Of a stretch of DNA of 64,000 nt, positions 21,423-25,370 are shown in pieces. The stretch lies in contig NZ_CP032684.1 in NCBI RefSeq assembly GCF_003627795.1, positions 535,001-599,000 on the forward strand, read 5' to 3'. A program made the position numbers and the translations under genes. Source of the DNA: Rhizobium sp. CCGE531. GTDB lineage: Bacteria > Pseudomonadota > Alphaproteobacteria > Rhizobiales > Rhizobiaceae. Position 1 is the first letter of the stretch, and every line of letters starts with the position of its first letter. A model generated the notes under the pieces. That model was not told where the DNA came from. It worked only from the letters and a program-made list of their open reading frames with translations, and ran no database searches.

Positions 21423-21436
21423 AGTATCCGTGTTGG

Positions 21437-22384
21437 TCAAGTAGGGGTTGCCGTCCATTCTCGGCCGTCCCTGAGCAATGCGTTTGCGAGCACGATGAGC
21501 TTTCGCATGATGGCTGTGATGGCAACCTTCGGTGCTTTTCCGGCAGCTTTGAGCTGGTCGTATTTTGCCTTGAGGTCGGGATTGAAGCGCATAGCGACAA
21601 GCGCCGGCATGTAGAGTGCCTGTCGCAGCTTTGCCCGGCCGCCGCGGATGAAGGCACGGCCGGTCCATGTCCCGGACTGCCGTGCGACGGGAGCCAGGCC
21701 AGCAAGCGAGGCTGCTTGGCCGTGGGCGAGCGTGCCGAGTTCGGGCATGTCGATGAGAAGCGCGAAGGCGGTGGTTGCTGAGATGCCGGGGATCGAAATG
21801 AGGCTTTCGAAGCGTCTTGCGAGGACGAGATTGTCCTTGATGAGCATCATGATCTCCCTTTCGATCGCGGCCATCTGGCGTTCGATCTGCCTGAGTTGCT
21901 CGGCGTTGTGACGCTTGAGCACGGTCAAAGTCAGGTTCTTTGCCCTGTTCTTGGCGGCGGTGCGGTTCTTGACCAGCGCCTCGCGGGCCATGTGCAAGTC
22001 CTTGAGGTCGTTGAGGATCGGGCTGCGTGCCGGCCGTGCTTCGAGTTCAAGGAGTGCCCCCATGCGCGCCAGCATAGCGGCGTCCAGCCGATCGGTCTTG
22101 GCGAGCTTGCCCGTGGCTTCGGCAAAACGCCGTGCCTGGCGTGGATTAACCTTGACGAGGGCCGCGCCTGCCGCAGCCAGCCGACGCTCGAAGGCCCGGT
22201 GATAAGGGCCTGTCGGTTCATAGACGATGCGTGTGTCATGAATGGTCTCAAGCTGGCCGAGCCAGCTCATGAAAGCTCCGTGGCCGACACTGTCGTTGGC
22301 GAAGCGGCGGATCGCGCCGTCGCTCATCCGGTGGGCATCGAGATGATCTTTCGAGATATCGACGCCAATGGTATCCTTTGTCAT
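21437..22384 (-). CDS. IS110-family transposase (RuvC-like DEDD/Ser recombinase)
   Basis: The 315-residue protein has an N-terminal RuvC-like domain with a complete DEDD set: D9 (GVDISKD), E56 (VYEPTGPYH), D98 and D101 (KTDRLDAAML). A central coiled coil follows. The C-terminal Tnp domain has the catalytic serine S237 in RQSGTWTGRA, followed by the conserved RGGRAKLRQALY. No frameshift or stop disrupts it, so the element could be active. The start at 22384 (MTKDTIG) fits the family; the longer open frame to 22486 runs through the noncoding RNA region and is rejected. Confidence 0.95.
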   Translation of the reverse strand: MTKDTIGVDISKDHLDAHRMSDGAIRRFANDSVGHGAFMSWLGQLETIHDTRIVYEPTGPYHRAFERRLAAAGAALVKVNPRQARRFAEATGKLAKTDRLDAAMLARMGALLELEARPARSPILNDLKDLHMAREALVKNRTAAKNRAKNLTLTVLKRHNAEQLRQIERQMAAIEREIMMLIKDNLVLARRFESLISIPGISATTAFALLIDMPELGTLAHGQAASLAGLAPVARQSGTWTGRAFIRGGRAKLRQALYMPALVAMRFNPDLKAKYDQLKAAGKAPKVAITAIMRKLIVLANALLRDGREWTATPT

Positions 22385-22389
22385 CTTTC

Positions 22390-22555
22390 GCTTGTCCTCT
22401 GCTTGTCGTCCGGAGCCAAACTCCGGGTATCCGTTCAGGACCAAAGAGAAAGACGAGGGCGATCCGACTCTAGCTCGACCCGTCAAACGGTCTGCGTTTC
22501 AACGATCCGACCCTCGCCGCTGTGGGAGGGCGGCTACCCTCTCTCAGCGGCTCAT
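22390..22555 (-). ncRNA. Predicted bridge RNA of the IS110 element
   Basis: On the element strand the left end folds into three units. The first is a 5' stem-loop (22517-22550, CCGCTG/CAGCGG plus GAGGG/CCCTC). The second is a target-type loop closed by CGAGGG/CCCTCG (22454-22459 with 22511-22516). The third is a donor-type loop closed by GTCCT/AGGAC (22437-22441 with 22394-22398) with the apical hairpin CCGGAG/CTCCGG (22410-22426). Guides: LTG about 22493-22503, RTG 22468-22474, LDG 22427-22434, RDG 22401-22407. RTG, LDG and RDG match target or donor sequence over 7-8 nt in register with core CT; LTG matches partially. This is the order known for IS621 bridge RNA. RNA ends are estimated. Confidence 0.78.
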
Positions 22556-22591
22556 TCTTCGCCTGTTCGGCAGCAAAAGTCATAAGACAAG

Positions 22592-22688
22592 CCCTTCAGC
22601 TTTTCACAGAAACTCTGAACCGCTCTATCTCTTTGTTATCTAGCAATTCCGGACGGAAAACCGCTGCGCACTTTTCCTGGAATTGCTC
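22592..22688 (+). repeat. RIME-like palindromic repeat, copy A, split by the IS110 element
   Basis: This copy shares its body with the copies at 25268 and 45433: CTGAACCGCTCTATCTCTTT, then a second palindrome running from GCAATTCCGG to GGAATTGC. Its first arm is interrupted: the AGAG lies at 21421-21424 on the other side of the IS, and CCCTTCAG follows at 22592. Two large palindromes in about 100 bp is the known layout of the rhizobial RIME1 element. Confidence 0.8.
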
Positions 22689-22922
22689 CAGACATCATCG
22701 CTGATCTTCGGATGAAGGTTAGGAAAGCCGGCTCATCAATGCTCGATAGCGGCCGGCAATATGGTTCAACCTGTGGCAATTGCCGTTGCTAAGTTGGGGA
22801 TGGTGTGTCCATTCGAAAATTGGAATGGGCACACTTCTTGCTTTTAGCAGAGCTGCATGTCACTTTCCTGTCGCACGAATTTGGTTTATGGCGCTATATC
22901 GGCCCGTAGGGGGAGAATCGCC

Positions 22923-25267: not shown

Positions 25268-25370
25268 AGAGTGGTTCAGTTTTTCGCGGAATCTCTGAAC
25301 CACTCTATCTCTTTGTTGTCTCGCAATTCCGGACGGAAAACCGCTGCGCACTTTTCCTGGAAATTGCTCT
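25268..25370 (+). repeat. RIME-like palindromic repeat, copy B
   Basis: An intact 103-bp copy. The first palindrome has arms AGAGTGGTTCAG and CTGAACCACTCT; its two arm changes are compensatory relative to the other copies, so the hairpin is preserved. The second palindrome runs from GCAATTCCGG to GGAAATTGC. It lies between the cyclase gene start and the malic enzyme stop. Confidence 0.82.

Follow-up and report, generated by a model that had tools for sequence, protein, structure and literature searches.

A predicted bridge RNA in the noncoding left end of an IS110-group insertion sequence of Rhizobium sp. CCGE531

An insertion sequence of the IS110 group in Rhizobium sp. CCGE531 carries a 205-bp left end that, as judged by comparison with the sequences of its relatives, very probably encodes a bridge RNA. 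The element occupies positions 21425-22589 on the minus strand of the window, by which we mean the whole 64,000-nucleotide stretch of DNA that was analysed, and measures 1165 bp without its CT core. A preliminary description drawn from this stretch had folded the left end by hand and assigned guides within it, such that a bridge RNA was readable by eye in one genome window and was then confirmed through the element's relatives. The bridge RNA, its loops, the natural redirection of its guides and the targeting of REP sequences by IS110 elements are already described in earlier papers (PMC11208160; PMC11187229; PMC1525189), and we consider the element described here to be a new and well-supported instance of a mechanism that was reported in 2024, not a new mechanism.

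The element is intact and is present in the genome in three full copies, in the window and at loci L002 and L003, with identities of 100, 100 and 99.9%; the first two show no differences and L003 a single one, and a fourth locus in the same genome, L004, is a left-end remnant. The recombinase gene (21437-22384, minus strand) encodes a transposase of 315 amino acids with the DEDD_Tnp_IS110 and Transposase_20 domains (PF01548, 1.2e-20; PF02371, 6e-18), scores 206.7 bits against a cut-off of 140 with the NCBI model NF033542, 'IS110 family RNA-guided transposase' (5.3e-61), and matches IS621 (8wt6, E 6e-33) and ISCro4 (9t56, E 4e-32) among PDB structures. Its residues D9, E56, D98, D101 and S237 align with residues of IS621 that we take to be catalytic. 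The noncoding ends are markedly unequal, with 205 nt upstream of the gene (22385-22589, minus strand) and 12 nt downstream. An IS1111-group element, or one of another DEDD branch with its RNA downstream, would share the same protein family, but the long noncoding end and the hit of the RNA model described below are both upstream, and a downstream RNA end of the IS1111 kind was not found in the 12-nt right end; we regard this assignment as extremely improbable. Few genomes of the genus have this left end, as a search with a 20-base pattern from it, tolerating one mismatch, found it in 3 of 148 genomes, and the L003 copy recurs in identical flanks on plasmid pRCCGE532d of Rhizobium sp. CCGE532. 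A second, distant IS110-type element is present in five copies (L005-L009), with right flanks starting CTCTCCC; it proved too distant to serve as comparison material (13.7 bits, E 0.054, with the covariance model).

The boundaries and core are established by the three full copies, the conserved ends of relatives and counts of flanking sequence, all of which agree with the preliminary description. With BLAST-defined ends and no motif filter, CT closes all 24 distinct left flanks and opens 57 of the 60 distinct right ones, 28 of the 60 beginning CTCTAG; the three exceptions, L098, L110 and L113, start with TC, CC and CC. Because the ends are exactly common and are flanked by CT, the element is defined as 21425-22589 with a CT core, the left copy of which lies at 22590-22591 (minus strand) and the right copy at 21423-21424. 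The window copy and L002 have a common left flank and different right flanks, and L003 differs on both sides. A two-base core at both ends together with site-specific insertion is the pattern of the IS110 group. Stems that are not conserved among relatives, or boundaries elsewhere, had been named in advance as outcomes that would contradict the preliminary description, and neither occurred.

Folding of positions 22379-22572 as a single sequence yields a 5' hairpin, a stem-loop, a target-type loop and a donor-type loop, with a z-score of -3.16 and none of 200 shuffled sequences folding equally well. The structure, written once from the window sequence, comprises eight helices and 42 pairs and was counted on an alignment of 53 left ends, from which the identical or near copies L001, L003, L046, L047 and L054, the remnant L004 and the rearranged left ends of L018 and L041 are left out. 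All features of the predicted RNA lie on the minus strand: the 5' stem-loop at 22517-22550 (helices 1-2, with changes on both sides in 11 of 12 pairs), the predicted target-binding loop at 22454-22516 (helices 3-5, with 97.5-100% of cells paired) and the predicted donor-binding loop at 22385-22452 (helices 6-8, with 84.0-92.1% paired). Overall, 92.0% of cells are paired against 35.6-54.0% when the structure is slid along the alignment, a comparison that somewhat favours the structure since it came from one row of that alignment. The compensatory changes appear to be the stronger part of the evidence: they occur in each of the eight helices, 28 of the 42 pairs are changed on both sides, and the covariation score is 0.408 compared with 0.178 for shuffled and 0.062-0.143 for slid structures, a value reached by none of 500 shuffles. 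The weakest helices are the two outer ones of the donor loop, which are 86.4 and 84.0% paired with two and one pairs changed on both sides, respectively. The single-sequence fold and the covariation thus bear out the order of 5' stem-loop, target loop and donor loop that had been drawn by hand, and the modelling of relatives' left ends that had been proposed as a check returned conserved stems. The layout stands, but the limit placed at 22390 does not, as the fold continues to the start codon of the transposase gene.

A covariance model (R1) gives the window left end, itself a row of the model, 211 bits and recovers left ends outside its build, including L026 (118 bits), L052 (97 bits) and L036-L038 (79-88 bits). 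The left end has no match in Rfam at gathering scores; one weak match nearby falls below the gathering score and is irrelevant. The consensus structure from RNAalifold was set aside, as it pairs a left-end TGTC with the GACA in the putative right donor guide and misses the two outer donor helices; we read the TGTC-GACA pairing as complementarity of guide and donor rather than as a helix.

The 3' strand of the donor stem contains AGAGGA, which we read as ribosome-site-like, and the outer stem closes on the transposase start codon, so that the folded RNA would be expected to hide the ribosome site. These features would suit a 5' leader whose structure regulates translation of the transposase, with the protein alone selecting the target, and a 5'-UTR structure that likely hides the ribosome-binding site is reported for ISPpu9 (PMC8450116). 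A leader role gives no reason to expect a relation between loop bases and flanking DNA, however, and within clades the loop bases vary in step with the flanking target. The leader and guide roles are compatible, and we consider it very unlikely that the left end is such a leader with the protein alone choosing the target.

We regard the covariation of the putative guides with the insertion sites as the decisive test of whether the left end acts as a bridge RNA. All four guide strings of the preliminary description are present on the minus strand at their assigned positions. The left target guide (LTG), TTGAAACGC, lies at 22494-22502 within the string GTTGAAACGCA (22493-22503), and the right target guide (RTG), GCTAGAG, the complement of CTCTAGC, at 22468-22474 within GCTAGAGT (22467-22474). 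Left ends were sought with the motif TGTCTTATGAC, with up to two mismatches, following CT, which gave 64 hits of which four were judged spurious; guides were then read by alignment column in 59 of the 60 left ends, the remnant L004 being left out. The LTG set (n=46) omits L054 and a further 12 rows whose 11-nt guide string is a repetition; the omitted rows include L003 and L101, which match well, and L053 and L127, which match poorly. The RTG set (n=35) omits in addition rows without a readable 7-base right flank. A one-base shift is permitted in scoring the LTG, for own and permuted pairs alike.

The LTG matches its own target at an average of 4.93 of 7 positions, compared with 3.09 (sd 0.15) when pairs are permuted, and the RTG at 4.4 of 5, compared with 2.71 (sd 0.14). 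Chance, or shared descent combined with similar flanks, has to be weighed here, because the many elements with CTCTAG flanks and guides ending in GC raise the background, as reflected in the permuted means, and these rise to 3.23 (sd 0.17) and 2.93 (sd 0.15) when permutation is confined within three clades, which were assigned by likeness of the left ends and not by a tree. For the LTG, the own and permuted values are 5.18 and 3.35 in the Rhizobiales-type clade (n=17, 0 of 20000 permutations reaching the observed value), 4.9 and 4.02 in the Agrobacterium-type clade (n=10, 232 of 20000) and 4.74 and 2.71 in the Rhodobacterales-type clade (n=19, 0 of 20000); for the RTG they are 4.14 and 3.56 (n=14, 6 of 20000), 4.43 and 3.61 (n=7, 98 of 20000) and 4.64 and 1.97 (n=14, 0 of 20000), respectively. 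The signal in the Agrobacterium-type clade taken alone is therefore weak, but with all clades pooled none of 20000 within-clade permutations reaches the observed LTG or RTG value, and since this result stands our assessment was left as it was. The clearest cases are the rare RTGs: CTACCGC, CTCACCC, CTATTCA, CTCGAGC and CTTCACC each adjoin an identical, rare flank. We consider coincidence or common descent a negligible explanation of the matches; a covarying fold whose guides covary with their targets exceeds chance, as the preliminary description had held. Sliding the flank against the LTG places the maximum of 4.93 at zero offset, with 3.8 and 3.5 at one base, raised because a one-base shift is allowed, and 1.6-2.7 further away. 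That the target loop corresponds to both strands of the target is indicated by covariation of the sequences.

The placing of both target guides was upheld by this analysis, and the RTG, for which complementarity to the core and right flank had been claimed previously, changes in step with the insertion sites, as does the LTG. The LTG had been called partial, and this is so for the window copy, where two of seven non-core bases are mismatched (as they are at L002), but not for L003, where none is and where 8 of the 9 LTG positions and all 7 RTG positions fit. Four of the 46 LTGs match at three or fewer of seven positions (the minus-strand copy at L020, L042, L044 and L117), and that of L119 matches at 2 of 9 when no shift is allowed; among the 35 RTGs, L015 matches at 0 of 5 and L025 at 3 of 5. 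The right side of L016 matches at 3 of 7, in a row that is uncounted as its guide repeats that of L011, and L035, whose left end and left flank are as in L016, has the expected right flank CTCTAGC. Loci outside the model and the statistics were read by eye, and among ten loci three independent groups were usable, L010 and L013 being short of left flank, L071 and L102 lacking a right end, and L035 being a repeat of L016. Of these, L036 and L037 have a contiguous left match of at least 11 bases and a full right match (7 of 7), as does L038 with one left mismatch, and their LTGs have no match to the core bases; L052 matches 8 of 8 right bases and 6 left ones, and L026 matches 8 left bases and 6 of 7 right ones. 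We note that the target in L036-L038 (around 1284), with about 11 plus 7 guide-matched bases, is the 3' end of a gene; judged by its motif, this is presumably a conjugation gene of the VirB10/TrbI type.

The donor guides are less tested because the donor ends hardly vary within the clade. The left donor guide (LDG), ACGGATAC (22427-22434, minus strand), and the right donor guide (RDG), GACAAG (22402-22407, minus strand), were located by position check and by alignment of relatives, GACAA being invariant in 53 rows, and they match the predicted joined ends at eight and six bases. The RDG had been given as GACAAGC at 22401-22407; its position was confirmed, whereas the match extends over only six nucleotides, GACAAG to CTTGTC, and not seven. 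At L049, L050 and L063 the right end, AGGGATA, and the LDG, AGGGATAC, have changed together. Some pairs of LDG and right end disagree, as at L016, where the right end ATGGATA is mismatched to an LDG of ACGGATAC. The LDG and RDG matches are consistent with a donor role through identity and this one clade-level change.

We infer that the element forms a circle, that the left end is transcribed from it and forms a ribonucleoprotein, and that recombination depends on the RNA. Excision would join the right end, CT and the left end into the predicted junction ACGGATA-CT-TGTCTTAT, and this would assemble a sigma-70-like promoter from a -35-like box, TTGACC (21435-21440, minus strand), in the right end and a -10-like box, TATGAC (22579-22584, minus strand), in the left end, with a spacer of 17 nt. 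Across 49 elements in which both ends are present and this spacing was read, a set that includes near copies, TTGA is present in 47 and TAT in 48; the -35-like box contains the stop codon of the transposase gene. A promoter scan of the integrated element found no promoter-like site, which agrees with a promoter assembled in the circle alone. The left-end RNA transcribed from the junction would then bind the DEDD recombinase. The first internal loop of the RNA would pair with the target (LTG with the left half, RTG with the core and right half) and the second internal loop with the junction of the circle (LDG with the right end and core, RDG with the core and left end), and recombination at CT would insert the element. 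The guide of the present element fits termini of apparently TA-inserting elements, roughly TGAAnCGCT followed by CTAG, which occur at the end of a RIME-like repeat and of an IS630-type element; an example of a predicted target is TGAAACGCTCTAGC.

The window copy and L002 sit at one terminus of a roughly 100-bp dispersed repeat, located in the window at 22592-22690 (minus strand; the outer limit is approximate), with at least 41 matches in its own genome, 40 of 182 first-look candidates having been scored. We call it RIME-like after the RIME elements of rhizobia; literature searches for confirmation of that name for this repeat returned none. Among ten readable copies without the insertion sequence nine have TGAACCGCTC at the end in question, four of these followed by TAG. 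The repeats at the window site and at the distant site L002 (G000:C1 64720-64817) are identical over 98 bp and end in GGGCT, which is rare; the matches listed include no TGAAGGGCTCTAGC that lacks the insertion. The two copies probably descend from one insertion that was copied along with its repeat, which would explain the partial fit of the LTG, as both lie in a mismatched repeat. The two chromosomal sites were read in those loci that were retrieved out of 120 genomes searched for each: the insertion sequence is present in none of 28 loci read at site 1, and repeat and insertion sequence are both absent from all 14 aligned loci at site 2. In same-genus loci that lack both, the gap adjoins TA at site 1 and partly at site 2. 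The relatives read lack repeat and insertion sequence together, as if both were copied as a unit; L176, a same-genus locus at site 1, has a RIME-like repeat without the insertion sequence in opposite orientation, and this place was probably hit independently. Another RIME-like copy, 92% identical, lies 2.7 kb away at 25275-25362 of the window.

The L003 copy adjoins the right end of a transposase gene that we read, from its protein, as IS630-type, the site being TGAAACGC-CT-CTAGC; two other copies of this IS630-type element end TGAAACACTC-TA. Each full copy in the genome sits at a terminus of an element that apparently inserts at TA. We note that the IS630-type element at L003 (519-1500) has two overlapping frames, with the IS110 insertion in its right terminus, and that its end (TGAAACRCTC-TA) is close to that of the RIME-like repeat (TGAACCGCTC-TA), hinting that the repeat may be a miniature relative of such an element. 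When 59 flanks were scored outside the guide against two repeat ends, with no shuffled control, nine besides the window, L004 included, match a repeat end at 13 or more of 21 positions. L016 and L018, with an LTG of TGGAATTGC, are found at the opposite end of repeats of this type, and the LTG of the present genome fits the first end. A check of three other flanks for repetition found L017 repeated (52 matches), L014 single-copy and L024 with only short partial matches, so that targeting of repeats is not a general habit of the clade. It is conceivable, if on balance doubtful, that an alphaproteobacterial IS110 branch exchanges its target guides and leaves its donor ends almost unchanged, and that some of its members have become specialists for the termini of other, TA-inserting elements; under the same tentative proposal these termini would comprise both RIME-like repeat ends and the IS630-type terminus. 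If this is true, dispersed repeats are parasitised by a transposon with an RNA guide, which may be carried along with them.

A comparable habit is that of IS5075 and IS4321, which insert in the terminal inverted repeats of Tn21-type transposons and so likewise in another transposon's end, although they are IS1111-type elements with other target transposons. IS621 (PMC11208160) resembles what is predicted for the present element in having its RNA in the left end, with a 5' stem-loop, a target loop and a donor loop, the guide order LTG, RTG, LDG and RDG with the core inside the pairings, a promoter across the joined ends and repeats (REP) as targets; it differs in target and host, and its recombinase is only distantly alike (E 6e-33). 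The seekRNA of ISEc21 (PMC11187229) is similarly an upstream RNA of an IS110-type element that matches both target strands and for which natural redirection of targets is reported, but host, target and sequence differ. ISRm19 of Sinorhizobium meliloti, a rhizobial IS110-family element described before bridge RNAs were known, is reported to lie in REP repeats in four of four copies (PMC1525189). A search of the open-licence literature found no paper containing both 'bridge RNA' and Rhizobium. The present element connects the targeting of IS110 elements with a dispersed repeat of rhizobia, and its relatives provide natural trios of recombinase, guide and target with a nearly constant donor, with 46 distinct left-guide and 18 distinct right-guide strings, that should be useful for tests of mismatch tolerance and for study of the evolution of guide retargeting. 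Finally, additional right-end fragments at L010 (1177-1257), L018 and L062 adjoin other copies or are inverted against them, suggesting repeated insertion or rearrangement.
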